This document shows positions 3,807 to 30,406 of a DNA stretch of 64,000 nt, piece after piece. The DNA is from Pseudomonas sp. R-28-1W-6. Lineage in GTDB: Bacteria > Pseudomonadota > Gammaproteobacteria > Pseudomonadales > Pseudomonadaceae. The stretch is from positions 1 through 64,000 of the forward strand of contig NZ_WELK01000007.1 of NCBI RefSeq assembly GCF_009799925.1, read 5' to 3'. Under the pieces are notes generated by a model. That model searched no databases, had not been told where the DNA came from, and saw only the letters and a program-made list of their open reading frames with translations. A program made the position numbers and the translations under genes. Within the stretch, counting starts at the first letter, position 1, and each line of letters starts with the position of its first letter.

Positions 3807-4445
3807 TCAGTGCAGGTTTTCCATGGCCCAGACCGCGGCCTCGACCCGCGAGCGCAGACCCAGCTTGTGCAGCAGGTTCTTCACATGGACCTTCACCGTG
3901 CCTTCGGTGATGCCCAGCTTGTTGCCGACCATCTTGTTGCTCAGGCCGCCGGCGATCATCTTCAGCACCTGGCGTTCGCGCTCGGTGAGGTCCAGCGAGC
4001 TGGCGCCCTGGGGCGAGCGCAGGGCCTGGGCCAGCACGGTGGTCAGGGCCGGGCTGACCACCAGGTTGCCTTGCAGCGCCTCGCGCAGGCGGGTGATCAG
4101 GTGCTCCGGCTCCATGTCCTTGAGCAGGTAGCCGTCGGCGCCGAAGCGCATGGCGTCGCGCACGTCGTTCTCCGCGTCGGACACGGTGAACAGCAGGATC
4201 TTGCCGGCATAGCCCTGGTCGCGCAGGCGCTTGAGGGTTTCCACGCCGTTGAGCTGCGGCATGTTGTTGTCCAGCAGGACCAGGTCCGGGTTCAGCTGGG
4301 CCACCAGGACGGTGGCTTCCTCGCCGTTGTTGGCTTCGCCGACCACCAGCAGGTCGGATTCCAGCTCAATCAACTGGCGGATACCGCGGCGCATCATCGG
4401 GTGGTCGTCGACCAGCAGCAGCGTGTGCGGACTTGCAAGGCTCAT
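3807..4445 (-). CDS. narL: Nitrate/nitrite response regulator NarL
   Basis: This 212-residue response regulator is the DNA-binding partner of NarX. The receiver domain (about 6-125) has acidic residues Asp13-Asp14, phosphoacceptor Asp59 in LLDNNMP and Lys109. A LuxR-type helix-turn-helix spans about 152-208, with LTERERQVL at its start. The ATG start overlaps the narX stop by four bases, so kinase and regulator are coupled. The expected sites are TACYYMT heptamers; a perfect 7-2-7 pair occurs before the hemN cluster and imperfect ones lie in the narX-narK1 gap. Confidence 0.95.
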   Translation of the reverse strand: MSLASPHTLLLVDDHPMMRRGIRQLIELESDLLVVGEANNGEEATVLVAQLNPDLVLLDNNMPQLNGVETLKRLRDQGYAGKILLFTVSDAENDVRDAMRFGADGYLLKDMEPEHLITRLREALQGNLVVSPALTTVLAQALRSPQGASSLDLTERERQVLKMIAGGLSNKMVGNKLGITEGTVKVHVKNLLHKLGLRSRVEAAVWAMENLH

Positions 4446-6244
4446 TGCGCTATCTCGTGGGTGGGCTGACGCAGGAAATCGGGGCAGAACAGCAGATGCA
4501 CGCGGGTGCCGTGCGGGGGGCGCGGCTCGATGGCGAGCTTGCCGCCCAGGCTGCGCGCGCGTTCCTGCATGATGTTCAAGCCATGGTGCTGGCGGCTGTC
4601 GAAGCCGGGGGCGATGCCGCAGCCATCGTCCTCGATCAGCAGCTCGACCTCTTCGCCGCTCTGCCGCAGGTGCACCCAGGCCTGGCTGGCCTGGGCATGC
4701 CGGGCACAGTTGGACAGGGCCTCGCGGACGATTTGCAGCAGGTGGATCTGTTCGGTGGCGGTCAGGGTGAAGGCCAGCGGTTCGCAATGCAACAGCACGC
4801 GCATGTTGCCACGCTCGGCGAATTCGCGGGCGGTGTCGTTGAACGCCTGGTCGATGCCGCCTTCCTGGATCTGCAGGCGGAAGGTGGTGAGCAGCTCGCG
4901 CAGCTGGCGGTAGGCATTGTTCAGGCCTTCGCGCAGCTCGTCGCTGACCTGGATCAGCTGCTCGCCGGGTTCGCCGCGGCGGATCAGGGTCTGCAGGCGG
5001 CTGACCTGCAGCTTCATGTAGGACAGCGCCTGGGCCAGCGAGTCATGCAGCTCGCGGGCGATGGTGGTGCGCTCGTCGAGCAGCAGCAGGCGGTTGTCCT
5101 GTTCGCGCTGGCGCTCCAGCAGCAGCGAGGTGCCGATCAGGTTGGCCAGGGCCTGGATCAGTTCCTGCTCCCAGGGCCGCGGCACATGGCCGTCCAGGTA
5201 GTGCGCGCGCAGCTCGCCGAGGGTGTCGCCCTGGGCGCTGACGGCGAAGATCAGGCGGCTCGGGCCCTGGTGCCGCTCGCAGCTGGCGCAGTCGTTGCGC
5301 GAGCAGATTTCCCGCGACTCGCTGCCGTGCAGGGCGATCAGCTGTTCGACCGGCTCGGCCGCATCGCCGCGCAGGCACAGGGTCAGGCGCAGGCCGGGCA
5401 GGCGCTGCTGGAAGCTGTCGATCAGCTCGTCGAGCTGTTCGGCGTTGGCCGGGCTGCTGGCGATGCTGCGGCTGCTCTGGTAGAGCAGCTCCAGGGCCGA
5501 GTTGCTCTGTTCCAGGTTCTGCGTCTTCTCCGCCACCCGCGACTCCAGGGTGCGGTGCGACTCCTCGATGGCGTCGGCCATGCTGTTGAAGCTCACGGCC
5601 ATCTGCCCCAGCTCGTCGTCGGAGCGGTATTCGATGCGCGCATCCAGGTCGCCGGCGCGAAAGCGCTCGGTGGCGCCGACCAGCTCCTGCAGCGGGTTGA
5701 TCACGCTGCTCTGCAGCTCGAACATGCCGATCAGCAGGATGATCACGGTCAGCAGCAGGGCGGCGCCCTGGATGCTCTGCTGCCAGCCCTGGCGCTTCTC
5801 GCTGAGGCGCTGCAGGAGCAGGACGAAGTGCTCCAGCTGGCCAATGAAGACTTCCGACTGCTGCTGGAAGGCGGCCGCGTCGCCGCGCTCGAGGGCCGGC
5901 TTCAGCTGCCCCTGCCACTGCTGCAGGATGGCCTGGAAGGCCTGCTGCTGGGGCGATTCGGGCTGCTCGCTGAGCAGGTGGTGGAGGGCGGTGCTGTCCA
6001 GGCGGCGCTGCATGTCGTCGCGCAGGTGCTGGATTCGTTCGACCGAGGCATTGGCTTCCAGCTGCCAGTTGAGACGGTAGGTGGCCATGCGCAGCGAACC
6101 GGCGGTGTTGATGGCGGCAGCATCGTCCTCGCTGACCCAGGCGATCAGCACGGCACTGAAGGCGCTGGAGAAGGCCAGGGCGGCGATCAGCAGGACCGCG
6201 AGCCCGGCACGCGCCGGCAGAGAGCTTTTCAACCAGTCCAGCAT
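4442..6244 (-). CDS. narX: Nitrate/nitrite sensor histidine kinase NarX
   Basis: This 600-residue inner-membrane kinase senses periplasmic nitrate and phosphorylates NarL. Transmembrane segments lie at about 12-35 and 158-177. Between them, residues 41-57 hold the nitrate-binding P-box (AAINTAGSLRMATYR). A HAMP domain follows at about 178-230, then a central region with Cys314, Cys319 and Cys322. The HisKA_3 H-box has His400 (ARELHDSLAQ), and the C-terminal ATPase domain shows DDGCGI. The length matches NarX of other bacteria. It is transcribed divergently from narK1 with a 232-base regulatory gap. Confidence 0.95.
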   Translation of the reverse strand: MLDWLKSSLPARAGLAVLLIAALAFSSAFSAVLIAWVSEDDAAAINTAGSLRMATYRLNWQLEANASVERIQHLRDDMQRRLDSTALHHLLSEQPESPQQQAFQAILQQWQGQLKPALERGDAAAFQQQSEVFIGQLEHFVLLLQRLSEKRQGWQQSIQGAALLLTVIILLIGMFELQSSVINPLQELVGATERFRAGDLDARIEYRSDDELGQMAVSFNSMADAIEESHRTLESRVAEKTQNLEQSNSALELLYQSSRSIASSPANAEQLDELIDSFQQRLPGLRLTLCLRGDAAEPVEQLIALHGSESREICSRNDCASCERHQGPSRLIFAVSAQGDTLGELRAHYLDGHVPRPWEQELIQALANLIGTSLLLERQREQDNRLLLLDERTTIARELHDSLAQALSYMKLQVSRLQTLIRRGEPGEQLIQVSDELREGLNNAYRQLRELLTTFRLQIQEGGIDQAFNDTAREFAERGNMRVLLHCEPLAFTLTATEQIHLLQIVREALSNCARHAQASQAWVHLRQSGEEVELLIEDDGCGIAPGFDSRQHHGLNIMQERARSLGGKLAIEPRPPHGTRVHLLFCPDFLRQPTHEIAQ

Positions 6245-6250
6245 GGCGGC

Positions 6251-6266
6251 TACCTCTAAAGAGTTC
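6251..6266. promoter_or_regulatory. Imperfect NarL 7-2-7 site next to narX
   Basis: TACCTCT matches the NarL heptamer TACYYMT exactly. After two bases, AGAGTTC matches five of seven positions of the inverted half. It lies immediately upstream of the narX start, where binding could feed back on narXL transcription. Confidence 0.35.
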
Positions 6267-6350: not shown

Positions 6351-6366
6351 TATCACTAAAGTGGTA
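6351..6366. promoter_or_regulatory. NarL-like 7-2-7 palindrome
   Basis: TATCACT-AA-AGTGGTA is an inverted pair of heptamers close to TACYYMT (five of seven and six of seven). Its arrangement matches the 7-2-7 layout bound by NarL. It sits 45 bases upstream of the ANR box. Confidence 0.45.
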
Positions 6367-20454: not shown

Positions 20455-20468
20455 TTGATCATGATCAA
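20455..20468. promoter_or_regulatory. ANR/FNR box of nrdD, perfect palindrome
   Basis: TTGATCATGATCAA matches all ten ANR positions and is itself a full palindrome. A -10-like TAGATT at 20490-20495 would put the transcript start near 20502, exactly 41 bases from the box centre. This is the standard class II activator geometry. Confidence 0.85.
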
Positions 20469-23816: not shown

Positions 23817-25184
23817 TTACCAGCCCCAGAACTGCAGCCACCAGGTCGTGGCGATCAGCAGATTGGCCAGCAGCAGGGCGCCCAGGATCGGCAGGCGTTG
23901 TGCGGGTGTCAGGGCGCGGCAGACCTGCCAGCCGAGGTGCAGGCTCCAGAGCAGGGCGGCGGCCAGCAGCGTGGCGCGCACGCTAGGCACCCAGAGCAGG
24001 GCCAGGCCCTCGTAGCGCAGCAGCTTGACCGTGGTGGCGGAGAGGCCGAGAAACAGCCCGGCCGCGCCGGTTGGCAGCAGGCACAACGCGATCTGGCGGG
24101 CGAAGGCCGGACCTTGCCCGGCCAGCTTGGCGGCCCCGCTGAGCAACAGGTGCAGGCCGCCGCCGAGCAGCAGGCTGCTGGCGCCCAGGTACAGGCAGAT
24201 GCTCAGGCCATCGAGCCAGGTGAAGGCATCGTTGAGCTGCGGATAATGGGTCAGCAGCCACCAGGGCGCGTCGGCTTCCAGCGGCCAGAGGATGTCGCGC
24301 CGCACCAGCCATTCGGCCAGGGTTTGCTTCAGGGCGATGAACCAGGGGCTGACCGTCCACTGGAAGGCGCCGATGGCCAGGCCGATCACCCCGTAGAGCA
24401 GCAGGCGCACCTCCCAGGTGGTGTCGCCGTCGGCGCCGTAGCGGACGATTTCCTCGTTGCCGGAGCGGGCGATCAGGCGCACCGCATCGCGCTGGCCGCT
24501 GCAGCGGCCGCAGGCGTGGCAGTCTGAGGCGCCGCGCATGCGGCGGATATCCAGCAGCGGCGCGCAGTTGGGCGGCGGCAGGTGCGGTGCGGCGTTGGCC
24601 TGCCAGCGCGCCTCGTCGACCTGGAAATGCACGGGGGCGAGTTTGGCCAGCAGGGCGAACACCCCGCTGACCGGGCACAGGTAGCGGCACCACACGCGCT
24701 TGCCGCGGCCGTACAGGTAGCCGACCAGCATGGCCGCCAGGGTCGAGCCGCCGAGGATCAGCAGGGCGGCCTGGGCGTAGTCGTAGACGCTGATCAGCTG
24801 GCCGTACAGGGTGGTCAGCAGGAAACCCAGGGTCGGCCAGCCGCCCCAGCGCATCCAGCGCGGGGTGCCGCGGCCCTGGCCGTGTCGGCTGGCCCATTCG
24901 CTGAGCGAGCCTTCCGGGCACAGCACGCCGCACCACAGGCGGCCGAACAGGACGATCGACAGCAGCACGAACGGCCACCACAGGCCCCAGAACACGAACT
25001 GGGCCAGCAGCGTCAGGTTGTCCAGCAGGCCCGCCGAGCCTGGCGGCAGGGGCAGCAGGGCGGGGATCACCAGCAGAGCGGCGTAGACCAGCACCACCAG
25101 CCACTGCAACCGGCGGATCAGTCCGGCGTGGCGGCGCATGGCGTGGCCCAGGCGGGTGAGCCGGCGGTTGAGCGCGGCGTTCAT
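23817..25184 (-). CDS. ftrD: FtrD-like membrane ferredoxin of an iron-uptake system
   Basis: This 455-residue polytopic protein resembles NapH/NosR-type membrane ferredoxins. CPEGSLSEW near 105 and CPVSGVF near 185 are cysteine-containing loops of that family. CHACGRC near 235 belongs to an iron-sulfur site, and about ten hydrophobic segments are present. In ferrous-iron systems named FtrABCD, this subunit is proposed to accept electrons from iron oxidised by the FtrB cupredoxin. The start overlaps the ftrC stop by four bases. The electron-acceptor role comes from the family model, not from the sequence. Confidence 0.82.
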   Translation of the reverse strand: MNAALNRRLTRLGHAMRRHAGLIRRLQWLVVLVYAALLVIPALLPLPPGSAGLLDNLTLLAQFVFWGLWWPFVLLSIVLFGRLWCGVLCPEGSLSEWASRHGQGRGTPRWMRWGGWPTLGFLLTTLYGQLISVYDYAQAALLILGGSTLAAMLVGYLYGRGKRVWCRYLCPVSGVFALLAKLAPVHFQVDEARWQANAAPHLPPPNCAPLLDIRRMRGASDCHACGRCSGQRDAVRLIARSGNEEIVRYGADGDTTWEVRLLLYGVIGLAIGAFQWTVSPWFIALKQTLAEWLVRRDILWPLEADAPWWLLTHYPQLNDAFTWLDGLSICLYLGASSLLLGGGLHLLLSGAAKLAGQGPAFARQIALCLLPTGAAGLFLGLSATTVKLLRYEGLALLWVPSVRATLLAAALLWSLHLGWQVCRALTPAQRLPILGALLLANLLIATTWWLQFWGW

Positions 25185-26026
25185 GCCGCGCGGCTCTGCA
25201 GAACCCTCCGCGGCGGCCGCAGCAGGCTCCAGGCGAGCAGCCAGTAGTAGCCCAGCAGGCCCACGTGCAGGGCCGAAGGCATGGCCCGGTAGCCGCTCAG
25301 GCTGGCCAGCAGCGCGCCCGGCTTCCTGCCGTCGTCGAGCAGCGCCGAGCTGTCCCACATCGGCTCGCTGAGCAGGGCGTAGATGTGTTCGGGCAGGTCC
25401 AGGGCCATCCACTGGCCGCTGGCGCGGTCCACCGCGCTCATCAGCAGGGCGCCGCCGAGCAGCAACAGCAGCACTTCGCTGACCAGGAAGAACTGGCGCC
25501 AGGCGATGAAGCGGCTGCCGGCCTGCAGCAGGGCGAAGCACAGCAGGCCGAGCAGCAGGCCCAGGCCCGCGCCCAGCGCCAGGCTGGCGGGGTTGGCCGA
25601 GGCGCTGACGCCGTAGAGGAAGATCACCGTCTCGCTGCCTTCGCGCGCCACCGCCAGGGCCACCAGCAGCGCCAGGCTGGCCAGGCGGCCGTGCTGCAGG
25701 GCGCTGTCGGCCTGTTGTTCGAGCTGCTGGCGCAGTTGCCCGCCGTTGCGGGCCATCCAGTGCACCATCTGCAGGATCAGCACGCAGGCGAGCAGACTGA
25801 GGCCGGCCTGGAACCATTCCCCACCCGGGCCGCTCATCCAGTTGCCGGCCAGGGCCATCAGCGCGGCCAGCAGCCCGGCCAGCAGCAGGCCGGCGCCGAC
25901 CCCGGCCCACAGGTGCAGCAGGGCACGCTGCTGGCCGGGCTGGCGGCGCAGCCAGGCATACAGGATGCCGATCACCAGCAGGGCCTCGACGCTCTCGCGC
26001 CAGACGATCAACAGGGCTTGTTCCAT
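25181..26026 (-). CDS. ftrC: FtrC-like iron permease (FTR1 family)
   Basis: This 281-residue inner-membrane permease of the Ftr1/EfeU family has seven hydrophobic segments. The two REXXE iron-binding motifs are intact: RESVE at 10-14 and REGSE at 128-132. FTR1 permeases move iron that has just been oxidised to the ferric form. The gene follows ftrB by 24 bases and overlaps ftrD by four. The length is as expected. Confidence 0.92.
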   Translation of the reverse strand: MEQALLIVWRESVEALLVIGILYAWLRRQPGQQRALLHLWAGVGAGLLLAGLLAALMALAGNWMSGPGGEWFQAGLSLLACVLILQMVHWMARNGGQLRQQLEQQADSALQHGRLASLALLVALAVAREGSETVIFLYGVSASANPASLALGAGLGLLLGLLCFALLQAGSRFIAWRQFFLVSEVLLLLLGGALLMSAVDRASGQWMALDLPEHIYALLSEPMWDSSALLDDGRKPGALLASLSGYRAMPSALHVGLLGYYWLLAWSLLRPPRRVLQSRAA

Positions 26027-26050: not shown

Positions 26051-26377
26051 TCAGCGAGCCTCGATCACGCCTTGCGGCAGCTCGGGGTGGAACTCGTCGA
26101 AGAACAGGTAGCGCCCGGGCTTGAGCGGATGGATCACGACGAAGGAGCTGACGCCGGGGCTGAGTACCTTCTCCACGCGCAGCGGCGTGCTTTCGAACTC
26201 GATGGGCCCCTGGCCGACGTTGTGCACGACGATCTTGAAGCGTTGCCCGGCGGCCACCTGCAGGCTGGCCGGGGTGAAGTGACCGTCACGGATGCTCAGC
26301 TCGTAGCTCGGCAGCGGGGCGGCCAGCAGGCCGCCGGGCAGGGCGGCGAGCAGCAGGCAGAGGGCTGGATGATGCAT
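26051..26377 (-). CDS. ftrB: FtrB-like cupredoxin of the iron-uptake system
   Basis: This 108-residue periplasmic protein has a signal peptide (1-19) and a cupredoxin-1-type fold pattern (FTPASLQVAAGQRFKIVVHN, then PLKPGRYLFFDEF). In the FtrABCD model this protein oxidises ferrous iron delivered by FtrA. The mature protein has no cysteine and only three histidines, so it lacks a classical type 1 copper site, which is usual for this branch. The ATG at 26377 gives the signal peptide. Confidence 0.8.
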   Translation of the reverse strand: MHHPALCLLLAALPGGLLAAPLPSYELSIRDGHFTPASLQVAAGQRFKIVVHNVGQGPIEFESTPLRVEKVLSPGVSSFVVIHPLKPGRYLFFDEFHPELPQGVIEAR

Positions 26378-26423
26378 GGGGCGCTCTCCGGGGAGGGCGG
26401 CGCGCGCGGGCGCGCCGCGGGGG

Positions 26424-26957
26424 TCAGTAGCCGCCTTTCTTGCCGATGCCGGCGTAGGTGAAGCTGTAGTGCAGCTCGCAGGTGGCGAACCAGGGCGCCA
26501 CGCCGGTCTCCTTGTCGCTATGCCGGCCGAAGTGCTGGCCATGGCCGCCGGGGGCCGCTACCCAGTAGGTCAGCTGGTACTGGCCGGGCCCCATCAGCTT
26601 GAGGTTGTCGCCGTAGTGCGGGCCGTCGTTGGCCACCATGGCGTGGAAGTTACCCTCCAGCACCTGGGCGCTGCCGACCTTGCTCAGGCGGTAGTTGACG
26701 TTCAGGTAGGGCACGAAGCTGCCTTCCTGGAAGCCGTGGGCGTTGTGCTCCAGGGCGCTGATATCGGCCTCCATGTGCACGTCGGAATCCACTGCCGGGC
26801 GCATCATGCCCGGTGGGTCCATCTCGATCGGTTGCAGGTACACGGCACCCACTTCCATGCCGGCGCACTGCTGCGGTTCGCCGATCGGGTATTCCTTGGC
26901 CTGGCTGGTGGTGGCGGCGATCAGGCCGGTCAGGGCGAGCAAGAGGCGGGGGTTCAT
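26424..26957 (-). CDS. ftrA: FtrA/P19-type periplasmic iron-binding protein
   Basis: This 177-residue protein of the P19/Tp34 family binds iron with copper in the periplasm. A signal peptide of 20 residues ends TSQA. The family motifs are visible: CAGMEVGAVYLQPIEMDPPG at 30-49, then a stretch with HMEADI and EHNAHGF carrying metal-binding Met and His residues. It is the first gene of ftrABCD. A Fur-type box lies 58 bases upstream, so iron limitation should induce the operon. Confidence 0.9.
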   Translation of the reverse strand: MNPRLLLALTGLIAATTSQAKEYPIGEPQQCAGMEVGAVYLQPIEMDPPGMMRPAVDSDVHMEADISALEHNAHGFQEGSFVPYLNVNYRLSKVGSAQVLEGNFHAMVANDGPHYGDNLKLMGPGQYQLTYWVAAPGGHGQHFGRHSDKETGVAPWFATCELHYSFTYAGIGKKGGY

Positions 26958-27014
26958 CCGGGCGTTTCCTTTGGCTGTAGTCGATGGCGCCAGCATAGGA
27001 AGGCGGGATGTAAT

Positions 27015-27029
27015 CAATAATGATTCTCG
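27015..27029. promoter_or_regulatory. Fur box before ftrABCD
   Basis: On the minus strand CGAGAATCATTATTG matches 11 of 15 positions of the TGATAAT-N-ATTATCA Fur consensus. The site lies 58-72 bases upstream of ftrA. An ANR-like ATGAT-TCTC-GTCAA (eight of ten) overlaps it at 27020-27033, which may be chance. Confidence 0.6.
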
Positions 27030-27065
27030 TCAATTTTTCCCCGGATAAGGCCGGCGCCGAAGAGG

Positions 27066-27081
27066 TACCCATCCAGAGGTA
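27066..27081. promoter_or_regulatory. NarL 7-2-7 site, perfect match
   Basis: TACCCAT-CC-AGAGGTA fits TACYYMT-N2-AKRRGTA at every position. It is centred 72 bases before the small ORF at 27146 that precedes hemN, and 116 bases before the divergent ftrA. It is the best NarL site in the window. Confidence 0.7.
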
Positions 27082-27145
27082 TGGCCTTGGCGGCCCGGAT
27101 CCCCGACCCTTGTCAGACTGAAGTGCCGCACAAGGAGTTTCGGCC

Positions 27146-27394
27146 ATGCAGGATCGACAGCGGGTCACCGCCACCACGCTGGCGCTGATTCACCAGAATC
27201 AGGTCGCCCTGGGGGAGGCCATCCAGCTGATCTCCGCCTGGTTTCAGCGCCATGGCGTGAGCGAGGTCACCGGCAGCCTGCAGGCGCACCTGGAGCTGCT
27301 GGTGAACAATTCCCTGCTGATCAACAGTCGCTTGGCCGGCCTGCTGGAACCGGCCGCTGCCGCGGATCGGCAGCCGGCGAACGACCCGGGTTGA
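27146..27394 (+). CDS. Small conserved-looking protein upstream of hemN
   Basis: The 82-residue product is not recognised. It is mostly predicted helix, has no signal peptide or membrane segment, and ends in a Pro/Asp-rich tail. AAGGAG at 27132-27137 precedes the ATG by eight bases. The stop lies 28 bases before hemN, so both are probably on one transcript under the NarL site at 27066. A similar small gene next to hemN is found, as I recall, in other pseudomonads. Nothing in the sequence gives a function. Confidence 0.75.
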   Translation: MQDRQRVTATTLALIHQNQVALGEAIQLISAWFQRHGVSEVTGSLQAHLELLVNNSLLINSRLAGLLEPAAAADRQPANDPG

Positions 27395-27422
27395 GCAGCA
27401 TCCCCTGTTCAGGTGAGTGAGC

Positions 27423-28811
27423 ATGATTGAGCCGGTGAGTTTCAACCGCGCCCTGGTCGAGAAGTACGACCGCCCCGGGCCGCGCTATACCTCCTACCCC
27501 ACGGCGCCGCAGTTCCACCAAGCCTTCGCCATGGACGACTACCGCGCCGCGGCCAGGCGGAGCAACCAGGCCGCCGCGCCCAAGCCGCTGTCCGTGTACA
27601 TCCACATCCCGTTCTGCAAGAGCCTCTGCTACTACTGCGCCTGCAACAAGATCATCACCCAGAAGAGCCACCGGGCGGTCGAGTACCTGGCCTACCTCAA
27701 GCGGGAAATCGCCCTGCAGGCCGCGCTGTTCGACGGCACGCGCAAGCTGACCCAGCTGCACCTCGGCGGCGGCACGCCGACCTATCTGACCGGCGAGCAG
27801 CTGGAGGAGCTGATGGCCGCCCTGCACGCGGCCTTCGCCATGGATGACAGCGACGCCCACGAGTTCTCCATCGAGGTCGACCCGCGTACCATCAGCCCGC
27901 CGCAGATCCAGCACCTGCGCGACCTCGGCTTCAATCGCCTGAGCTTCGGCGTGCAGGACTTCGACGCGGCGGTACAGGCCGCGGTGAACCGCCTGCAGAG
28001 CGAGGAGCAGACCCGCGAGCTGGTCGCCGCGGCCCGCCGTGCCGCGTTCAAGTCGGTCAGCGTCGACCTGATCTACGGCCTGCCGCTGCAGACCCGGGCC
28101 AGCTTCGCGGTCACCCTGGACAAGATCATCGACCTGCGCCCGGACCGCATCGCCGCCTACAGCTATGCCCACCTGCCCGAGCTGGTCCGCGCGCAGCGCC
28201 TGATCCGCCGCGAGGACATGCCGCCGCCGGAACGCAAGCTGGAGCTGCTGGAACTGACCATCGAGCGCCTGACGGCGGCGGGCTATGTCTACATCGGCAT
28301 GGACCACTTCGCCCTGCCGGACGACGAGCTGAGCCTGGCGCGGGCGCGGGGCACCCTGCAGCGCAACTTCCAGGGCTATTCCACCCACGCCGACTGCGAC
28401 CTGATCGGCCTGGGCGTGTCGTCGATCGGCAAGGTCGGCGACAGCTACAGCCAGAACGTCAAGGAGCTCTCGCAGTACTACGCCCGTCTCGACGAGGGCC
28501 TGCTGCCGGTGCAGCGCGGCTATCGGCTGAGCGCCGACGACTGCCTGCGCCGCGAGGTGATCAGCGACCTGATGTGCCACGGCCGGGTCGACTTCGCCCG
28601 CATCGAAAGCCGCCATGGCATCCGCTTTCGCGAGTACTTCGCCGCGGCCCTGGATTCCCTCGCCGGGCCGGTCGCCGACGGCCTGCTGCACATCCATGAG
28701 CGGGAACTGGTGCTGCTGCCACCGGGCCACCTGCTGATGCGCAGCATCGCCATGGCCTTCGATGCCTACCTGGGCGAGGCGCAGCAGGGGCGCTTTTCCC
28801 GCACCGTCTAG
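27423..28811 (+). CDS. hemN: Oxygen-independent coproporphyrinogen III dehydrogenase HemN
   Basis: This 462-residue radical-SAM enzyme replaces HemF in haem synthesis when oxygen is absent. The cluster cysteines are Cys65, Cys69 and Cys72 in FCKSLCYYCACN, with the extra Cys74 typical of true HemN. LHLGGGTPTYL near 110 is the SAM-binding motif. ATG at 27423 with AGGTGA is preferred over GTG at 27417. The upstream NarL site suggests nitrate control, which would match the haem demand of NarI and denitrification cytochromes. Confidence 0.96.
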   Translation: MIEPVSFNRALVEKYDRPGPRYTSYPTAPQFHQAFAMDDYRAAARRSNQAAAPKPLSVYIHIPFCKSLCYYCACNKIITQKSHRAVEYLAYLKREIALQAALFDGTRKLTQLHLGGGTPTYLTGEQLEELMAALHAAFAMDDSDAHEFSIEVDPRTISPPQIQHLRDLGFNRLSFGVQDFDAAVQAAVNRLQSEEQTRELVAAARRAAFKSVSVDLIYGLPLQTRASFAVTLDKIIDLRPDRIAAYSYAHLPELVRAQRLIRREDMPPPERKLELLELTIERLTAAGYVYIGMDHFALPDDELSLARARGTLQRNFQGYSTHADCDLIGLGVSSIGKVGDSYSQNVKELSQYYARLDEGLLPVQRGYRLSADDCLRREVISDLMCHGRVDFARIESRHGIRFREYFAAALDSLAGPVADGLLHIHERELVLLPPGHLLMRSIAMAFDAYLGEAQQGRFSRTV

Positions 28812-28820
28812 GCGCCTGTT

Positions 28821-28876
28821 CCTGTGCGCACCAGCAGCCCGCACGGGCCTGTGGTGCGCATGGCGCAGCCTGCGCA
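28821..28876. repeat. Degenerate pair of GTAGGGTGCGCC-type repeats (copy 7)
   Basis: Half copies CTGTGCGCACC (28822-28832) and GGTGCGCATGGCGCAGCCTG (28853-28872) sit in opposite orientation between hemN and the toxin-antitoxin operon. Confidence 0.45.
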
Positions 28877-28937
28877 AGCGCCGGCCAGCCCCGCCGTCGG
28901 TGCATATCCTGGTGTTCGTTTGGTTGTTTTATTGCTA

Positions 28938-28952
28938 TGTTTGTATCAAACA
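28938..28952. promoter_or_regulatory. Operator palindrome of the Xre/RES operon
   Basis: TGTTTG-TAT-CAAACA is a perfect 6-3-6 inverted repeat, 17 bases upstream of the antitoxin ATG. Palindromes in this position are usual autoregulatory operators of antitoxins, so Xre is the likely ligand. Confidence 0.65.
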
Positions 28953-28969
28953 GACATCAGGAGACGGTC

Positions 28970-29341
28970 ATGAGTGCGCTTGGCAAGCCCCGCGTCGCCG
29001 CGGATGCGGTTCTGCTCAAGGCCCTGCTCAACAGCCGCGAACAGCTGGGCCTTACCCAGCAGGAACTGGCGCAGATAGTCGGGGTCAACCGTTCGGCCAT
29101 CAGCCGCTGGAACGACAGCGGCGGCCTGCGCCCGCAGAGCAAGACCGGCGAGCTGGCGCTGTTGCTTATCCGCGCCTACCGGGCGCTGTTCGCCCTGTTC
29201 GGCGGCAACCTGGAGGACATGCGCCACTTCCTGCGCACCGAGAACCGCCACCTGGCCGGCGTACCGCTGCAGCAGATGGGCCAGGTGCAGGGCCTGGTGC
29301 GGGTGGTCGAGTATCTCGACGCCATCCGCGGCAAGGTCTGA
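28970..29341 (+). CDS. Xre/MbcA/ParS-type antitoxin
   Basis: This 123-residue protein joins a helix-turn-helix (about 20-50, with GLTQQELAQIVGVNRSAISR) to a C-terminal MbcA-type toxin-binding domain (about 60-123, ending LDAIRGKV). Such antitoxins block RES-domain toxins. AGGAG at 28959-28963 selects the ATG at 28970 rather than an earlier ATG. Its stop codon lies exactly where a MITE-like element begins, and the last residues still look native. It should repress its own promoter through the palindrome at 28938. Confidence 0.85.
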   Translation: MSALGKPRVAADAVLLKALLNSREQLGLTQQELAQIVGVNRSAISRWNDSGGLRPQSKTGELALLLIRAYRALFALFGGNLEDMRHFLRTENRHLAGVPLQQMGQVQGLVRVVEYLDAIRGKV

Positions 29342-29542
29342 GAACCTGTCTCGGATCTCTTGATCGTCGGCCATGCTGCGTTGAAATTGGGCTCGGACTG
29401 CTCATTTACACCTCGTAAACTCCGCGTCCTCACCCAATTGATTCGCTGGCGCTCACCCTTCGGGCCAGCCTTTGGCTGTTACTCCCAATGGTCGTTGCGC
29501 CTTGCCTGGCTCTAGCTCAAAAGATCCTAAACAGCTTCTGAG
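29338..29542. mobile_element. MITE-like element between antitoxin and toxin genes
   Basis: About 205 bases are bounded by imperfect inverted repeats: 21 of the first 26 bases match the reverse complement of the last 26 (left end starts CTGAGAACCTGTCTCGGATC). There is no open frame inside. Related sequences, also carrying a GCGTTGAAATTGG-type stretch, occur many times in Pseudomonas genomes as I recall. No clear target-site duplication was seen. Together with about 110 further bases it fills the gap between the antitoxin stop and the RES gene. Confidence 0.65.
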
Positions 29543-29653
29543 GCCGCTGCCGGGACCGTCCTCGTGCGGCTGCCGCTAAGCGCCCGGACTACAGACCGAT
29601 CTTCTTACCCCCGACTTTCACGCCCGCCGCCGGCGGGCCCAGCGAGCATCGAT

Positions 29654-30406
29654 ATGGATATCTGGCAGGCCTGTGCTGGCGCAGAGCAGATTGCCCCATT
29701 GCGTGGGCGCCTGGTGCGCCTGGTGGAAAGCCAGGAGCAGGTGGCCACCCTGCAGCTGGTCGACACCCTGGAGGAGCAGGCCCTGCTCGAACAGCTGCTG
29801 GAGACCAGCAAGCCGCCGCTGCCGGCCAGCGACGAACCGCTGCACTACCTGCTGCATACGCCGTTTCGCTACCCGCCGCTGCGCTGGGGCTCGCGCTTCG
29901 GCCGCCGGCATGAGCCGAGCCTGTTCTACGCCGCCTGCCGCCTGGATACGGCGATGGCCGAGACGGCCTTCTACCGCTTTGTGCTGTGGCACGGGATGCT
30001 CGAGCCGCCGCCGAGCGGGCGGATTCTCAGCGAACATGCCTCGTTTGAGGCACGCTACCAAGTCGAGCGCGGCATCCGCCTGCAGCTGCCGCCGTTCGAC
30101 CGCCACCGCGAGCTGCTGGCGCACCGCAGCGACTACCGCGCCACCCATGAGCTGGGCAGCGCCATGCGCGAGGCCGGCGTGGAGGCGTTCGAATTTCCCT
30201 CGGCGCGCTGCCCGCTGCGGGGCAACAACGTGGCGCTGTACCGCCCGCAGGCCTTCGCCGAGCGGCGCCCGCGCAACCTGCAACCCTGGCTGTGCGAGAC
30301 CACGGCCGGCTACGTGGCCTTCAAGAGCGCCCAGGGCCTGGATACGCCGCGGGTGTTTGAGTTGGCGCTGTTCCTGGTCGACGGGCGCCTGCCGCAGCCG
30401 GCCTGA
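29654..30406 (+). CDS. RES-domain toxin (NAD+ phosphorylase family)
   Basis: This 250-residue protein has the RES domain. It carries GRLVRLVESQEQVAT near 17-31 and YAACRLDTAMAETAFYR near 95-112, the counterparts of the family's Arg- and Glu-containing motifs. Characterised RES toxins destroy NAD+ by phosphorolysis and stop growth. The ATG at 29654 is preferred; in-frame sequence before it is unlike the family. Normally toxin and antitoxin genes abut, but here 312 bases including a MITE-like element separate them. No frameshift is visible, so the toxin should still be functional if it is transcribed. Confidence 0.85.
   Translation: MDIWQACAGAEQIAPLRGRLVRLVESQEQVATLQLVDTLEEQALLEQLLETSKPPLPASDEPLHYLLHTPFRYPPLRWGSRFGRRHEPSLFYAACRLDTAMAETAFYRFVLWHGMLEPPPSGRILSEHASFEARYQVERGIRLQLPPFDRHRELLAHRSDYRATHELGSAMREAGVEAFEFPSARCPLRGNNVALYRPQAFAERRPRNLQPWLCETTAGYVAFKSAQGLDTPRVFELALFLVDGRLPQPA

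Follow-up and report, generated by a model that had tools for sequence, protein, structure and literature searches.

A 64,000-nucleotide (nt) stretch of Pseudomonas sp. R-28-1W-6 (contig NZ_WELK01000007.1, positions 1 to 64,000; the window) carries a NarL-type 7-2-7 inverted repeat at 27066–27081, followed by a small open reading frame (ORF) of 82 residues, ORF82 (27146–27394, plus strand), and by hemN (27423–28811, plus strand). The element, its conservation, the ORF82 gene and the order of the genes were observed directly. From sequence comparison we consider it reasonably likely that the repeat is a NarL-type operator which makes ORF82 nitrate-responsive, and that the nar-linked hemN behind it shares the transcript in this lineage.

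The repeat, TACCCAT-CC-AGAGGTA (no strand assigned), was recognized by its match to the consensus and by a matrix derived from narK sites. Its sequence, TACCCATCCAGAGGTA, shows no mismatch to TACYYMTNNAKRRGTA at any specified position, in agreement with the perfect NarL fit claimed by the first-pass annotation, and it is the sole perfect 7-2-7 match in the assembly of 4,268,852 bases. Three further sites in the assembly have one mismatch, and a reversed-pattern control gave eight sites with at most one mismatch. Within the window, two sites with at most two mismatches were found, compared to 0.57 expected from shuffles. Counting of matches to the Escherichia coli consensus was rejected as stand-alone evidence, since with one mismatch allowed the reversed control gave more sites than the forward pattern in each of 20 genomes. 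Taken by itself, the E. coli NarL consensus is weak evidence, and conservation carries more weight. An extra heptamer, AGAGGTA (27061–27067, minus strand, where it reads TACCTCT), is a direct repeat of 27075–27081 with a spacing of 14 base pairs (bp).

The narX-narK intergenic region served as a yardstick. Its limits could be set in the window and in 26 of the 28 nar regions fetched; L141 and L157 were not delimitable, and L149 was kept despite a weak narK match (28%). A palindrome near TAYCNCYNNRGNGGTA was present in all 27 regions (no mismatch in 25, one in two), as picked by a motif that had been written after inspection of those sites. It starts 52–54 bp before the best Anr-like box in 25 of the 27, the position at which narK1 would be expected to have its NarL site. 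The 16 distinct narX-narK sites, and no others, were combined into a symmetric matrix. Over the 64 kilobases (kb) of the window, this matrix placed the narX-narK1 palindrome TATCACTAAAGTGGTA (6351–6366, no strand assigned) first with 25.0 bits, a site at 6251 second with 16.3 bits and the element at 27066 third with 9.6 bits. The element had previously been described as better than the sites at narK1, which holds by the E. coli consensus only; the narX-narK matrix reverses the order. The narX-narK1 region contains two conserved NarL-type palindromes, 6351–6366 and 6251–6266. The latter lies at the narX start, and many relatives have the same as TACCTCTAAAGA.

Relatives of ORF82 were found at 11 named loci, and at 10 of these the site before the ORF82 relative was the top-scoring one in approximately 12.2 kb (8.4–19.7 bits). 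When the half-site columns of the palindromic matrix were permuted, none of 500 matrices reached 10 loci, one reached nine and 222 reached none. The result, 10 of 11 named loci, was the same with a matrix built from the nine distinct sites of genomes without ORF82. The earlier proposal of a NarL site at this position is thus backed by comparative evidence as far as the site itself is concerned. Mismatches to the consensus at eight other loci numbered one in three loci, two in two, three in one and four in one, whereas P. benzenivorans, with five, has no site. The narL gene of the window (3807–4454, minus strand; PF00072 and PF00196) is represented by orthologues in 96 of the 398 Pseudomonas genomes, and narL was present in nine of nine ORF82 genomes tested.

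Two alternatives can be weighed on these data. The perfect match in the window might have arisen by chance, and near matches to the consensus are indeed not enriched over the reversed control; however, 10 of the 11 loci of relatives have a site at this place, which no permuted matrix equalled, and we regard chance as very improbable. A real palindrome might also be bound by another protein, either another regulator of the NarL type or one unrelated to NarL that recognizes TACC-N8-GGTA. Conservation runs beyond the NarL heptamer into TGG, some sites are two to four positions off the consensus, and a second NarL-like protein (45–47% identity) occurs in four of 20 genomes searched. It was not found at E 1e-40 in the other 16, the window genome included, and the matrix derived from narX-narK sites alone still ranks the element first at 10 of 11 loci. 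A different binder therefore seems quite unlikely.

ORF82 itself is, by its pattern of substitutions, a real gene under purifying selection. It is preceded by the ribosome-binding site AAGGAG (27132–27137, plus strand) 8 nt before the ATG, as had been claimed, and the gene call is based on a profile match, relatives, the ratio of nonsynonymous to synonymous substitution rates (dN/dS) and a structural model. The relatives are 98% (Pseudomonas sp. 8AS), 53% (P. peli) and 41–48% (the rest) identical. Values of dN/dS were 0.07 against 8AS, 0.21 against P. peli, where synonymous sites are near saturation, and 0.15–0.35 when six second-group loci were compared with one another. Conservation of the ORF, the absence of which had been named in the first-pass annotation as refuting, is thus borne out by the 11 named loci and by dN/dS values of 0.07–0.35. 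Thirteen genomes gave a hit at 1e-7; in four of them (G121, G264, G310, and G424; 35–38% identical) it lies away from ftrA in the stretches fetched. At L091 and L096, the frame can be extended without a stop from the GTG start back to GGTATGGNATG, so that the true start of the small gene is uncertain there.

Eleven residues (M1, H16, Q17, N18, Q19, L22, W32, G37, E40, N55, and L63) are invariant in 12 ORF82 sequences. The AlphaFold2 model is a two-helix hairpin (H2–35 and H39–74) with a mean predicted local distance difference test score of 85.2. A fold search gave no match at E 0.001 or better among 520, the top rows being helical hairpins and bundles. Similarly, ORF82 had no match in Pfam or NCBIfam, and 14 relatives gave single weak matches only (best E 0.021). 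Residues 6–68 match positions 5–67 of the 69 in the profile phrog_12397 (E 3.4e-9), which is nearly full length, and all 14 relatives tested match this profile at E 1 or better. The 'unknown' protein of the first-pass annotation is not an orphan; the description still applies to its function, since the family is listed as of unknown function.

Matches to phrog_12397 were found in 43 of 95 genomes, all of the genus Pseudomonas, with up to nine matched stretches per genome. An ORF82 relative used as query matched two phage and three plasmid records. This family of small two-helix proteins is carried by phages and plasmids as well, and ORF82 represents a chromosomal branch of it. Among 70 proteins encoded next to other family members, no common family was seen; the commonest of those listed (25 of 52 families) accounted for three of the 70. 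In one genome without ORF82 opposite ftrA, a further member (G058:C33:21650-21847) lies approximately 3 kb from ftrA.

On the other side of the element, an ftrABCD-like operon is encoded on the minus strand. The ftrA-like gene for a P19-type iron transport protein (26424–26954) matches PF10634 with 8.5e-61 on the longer frame 26424–27017. The ftrB-like cupredoxin frame (26051–26542; PF13473, 1.6e-24) overlaps ftrA, so its true start is probably further in. These are followed by an ftrC-like FTR1 permease gene (25181–26026; PF03239, 2.6e-29) and an ftrD-like gene for a 4Fe-4S protein (23817–25184; PF12801, 1.1e-13), the start of which was chosen at MNAALN. The FTR1 gene was not found beside ftrA in two of 12 loci, both from metagenome-assembled genomes.

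Among the 398 genomes of the genus, an FtrA orthologue was found in 84, NarL in 96 and both in 83. The FtrA count omits six of 90 genomes with matches of only 43–44% identity (G048, G131, G297, G319, G358, and G375); all six are outside the NarL list, and their inclusion would give 83 of 90. The NarL search scored only seven candidates per genome, and a missed NarL is possible. Both genes are on one contig in 70 of the 83 genomes, with a median of 21.7 kb and a maximum of 83 kb between them. In this genus, the ftrA operon is therefore found almost always together with nitrate respiration. An open-access literature search found no paper on co-occurrence of an ftrA-type importer with narL, on ORF82 or on regulation of Pseudomonas ftrABCD by NarL.

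This neighbour raises the alternative that the site acts mainly on the ftrABCD-like operon, or in both directions; nitrate would then tune ferrous-iron import, with ORF82 and hemN as bystanders. The site lies between ftrA and ORF82, about 112 nt before the ftrA start; ftrA adjoins ORF82 divergently in 12 of 12 loci (the window and 11 others), and NarL accompanies FtrA in 83 of 84 genomes. In contrast, the presence of the site goes with that of ORF82 rather than ftrA. Of 30 ftrA loci examined, nine had ORF82 divergently upstream, and the site was present in eight of these (8.4–19.7 bits); at the 21 loci without ORF82, 11 of which are in genomes shown to have narL, no comparable match was found upstream (450 nt), the best having 7.8 bits. 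Fisher's test for site versus ORF82 gave 1.5e-6 with relatedness ignored, which is no true probability because the loci are related. We consider this alternative unlikely. In many genomes without ORF82, a frame starting MAKPFP with an Anr-type box ahead occupies the spot opposite ftrA, as seen by eye (read at L068–L071, L074, L076, L077, L079, L080, and L082).

Several points speak against NarL control of ORF82 and need to be considered with the evidence above. The site might serve ftrABCD instead or additionally. P. benzenivorans has kept ORF82 and narL, and its site is absent. The loci are not independent: six belong to one close group, two are near-identical, and approximately six lineages were distinguished by eye. 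The sites of the window and P. peli score low with the narK-derived matrix (9.6 and 8.4 bits), and at least 9.6 bits was reached somewhere in four of 32 loci (3.2 kb or shorter) of weaker family members. One of these four matches (13.9 bits) lies at most 250 nt before the family member, inside the preceding ORF. Given the four of 32, neither the window nor P. peli has a score that is remarkable singly; what is remarkable is where these sites lie. A simple scan of 26900–29000 gave no sigma-70-type promoter, and the start codon of the small gene is uncertain in MRCP1333 and GD04019. The surplus of reversed-control matches in all 20 genomes, given above, counts on the same side.

In the five closest loci, two conserved islands stand out amid diverged sequence, one around AATAATGATTCTCGTCAATTT and the other formed by the element GAGGTA...GGTATGG. 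The conserved block on the ftrA side of the window, AATAATGATTCTCGTCAAT (27016–27034, no strand assigned), is Fur-like and also FNR-like (two mismatches). It agrees in 12 of 19 positions with the Fur consensus; across loci the agreement was 11–15 of 19, and the number of shuffles (of 300) that did as well varied between loci from 0 to 55. By eye, the block was seen at 30 of 30 ftrA loci. A sigma-54 promoter 3' of the site was rejected by eye, the spacing being 9 instead of 10 in most loci read, as was a leader ORF starting at GGTATGG, which is not conserved. No Anr-type box with at most one mismatch was found near ORF82-hemN in the window. In four second-group loci examined, an Anr-like box (one to three mismatches) precedes the NarL-type site by approximately 27 bp and could add oxygen control there.

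The hemN gene of the window reaches 599.9 bits with TIGR00538 (cut-off 324.95) and is a nar-linked paralogue; a second copy of about 51% lies elsewhere in the genome. The ATG of the nar-linked hemN (27423) is 28 nt past the ORF82 stop, no terminator-like site was found between the two genes in a scan of 26900–29000, and the start of hemN and the stop of the small gene overlap in P. peli. From this spacing and overlap, ORF82 and hemN are probably co-transcribed. The link between the ORF and hemN proposed by the first-pass annotation is present in the window and is narrower than proposed: within the fetched flanks hemN follows ORF82 in three of 12 loci (the window, Pseudomonas sp. 8AS, and P. 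peli), compared to 12 of 12 for divergent ftrA.

Copies of hemN with 80–84% identity were found in 11 other genomes of 15 searched, nine of the 11 on the narL contig within approximately 31 kb. Five of ten other nar-linked copies have an Anr-like box 22–23 nt before TACAAT (by eye), and 11 of 12 examined copies of the second type have one (at most two mismatches) 71–89 nt before the start. Neither the window nor P. peli has an Anr-like box with fewer than three mismatches in the 350 nt before the nar-linked hemN. Elsewhere in the window, perfect TTGATNNNNATCAA Anr-type boxes are located at 277–290 and 20455–20468, the second directly before nrdD. An Xre/MbcA-type antitoxin gene and a RES-domain gene follow hemN (28967–30406) and are likely a toxin-antitoxin pair.

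From these observations we infer NarL binding, the direction of regulation, co-transcription and a role for the protein as follows. With nitrate present and oxygen absent, phosphorylated NarL would bind 27066–27081 as a dimer and change, most likely raise, transcription of ORF82. In the window species, Pseudomonas sp. 8AS and P. peli, hemN would probably be co-transcribed, and anaerobic haem synthesis would become nitrate-responsive there. ORF82 would most likely be a small helical adaptor or regulator near the iron and haem supply for nitrate respiration, a guess based on the neighbouring genes. A wider proposal, which we put forward tentatively and regard as rather doubtful, is that a small protein whose family also has phage and plasmid members has settled in the nitrate-respiration neighbourhood of some Pseudomonas. 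NarL would activate it there along with the import of ferrous iron and, in one lineage, with the hemN copy behind it; the protein would then be a nitrate-controlled adaptor that adjusts the provision of iron and haem to respiratory enzyme assembly. Should this hold, nitrate sensing in these Pseudomonas would extend beyond the nar genes and reach the supply of iron and haem as well as a small protein family, an otherwise scattered and partly mobile family without known role would gain its first physiological handle, and there would be a clear prediction on how denitrifiers match metal supply to iron-rich enzymes.

Compared to known systems, the element shares the inverted heptamers and 2-bp spacing of the NarL 7-2-7 operators of E. 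coli and of P. aeruginosa narK1, dnr, nirQ, and paiI, and a palindrome of its type also precedes narK1 in the same genomes. The heptamer and its 7-2-7 arrangement are documented in excerpts of PMC6152468 and PMC7419079. According to the excerpts of the latter, single 7-2-7 sites at -67.5 and -77.5 lead to nitrate-inducible expression in E. coli, whereas a strong site at -44.5 is active without nitrate coupling. In contrast to the known operators, ORF82-hemN does not appear as a NarL target in the excerpts of PMC5703892 and PMC6152468. The hemN of the window is similar to Pseudomonas hemN genes with an Anr box in reaching the TIGR00538 equivalog score; it differs in being a second, nar-linked copy and in the upstream region described above. 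Within phrog_12397, the ORF82 branch is set apart by its constant position beside ftrA, in contrast to other members, which have no common neighbour family. Finally, the window has genes for a P19-type protein, a cupredoxin, an FTR1 permease and a 4Fe-4S protein in the same order as the FtrABCD ferrous-iron transporter (gene layout from excerpts of PMC11966278), with predicted Fe2+ uptake, whereas the Pseudomonas operon is distinguished by its tie to genomes with narL.
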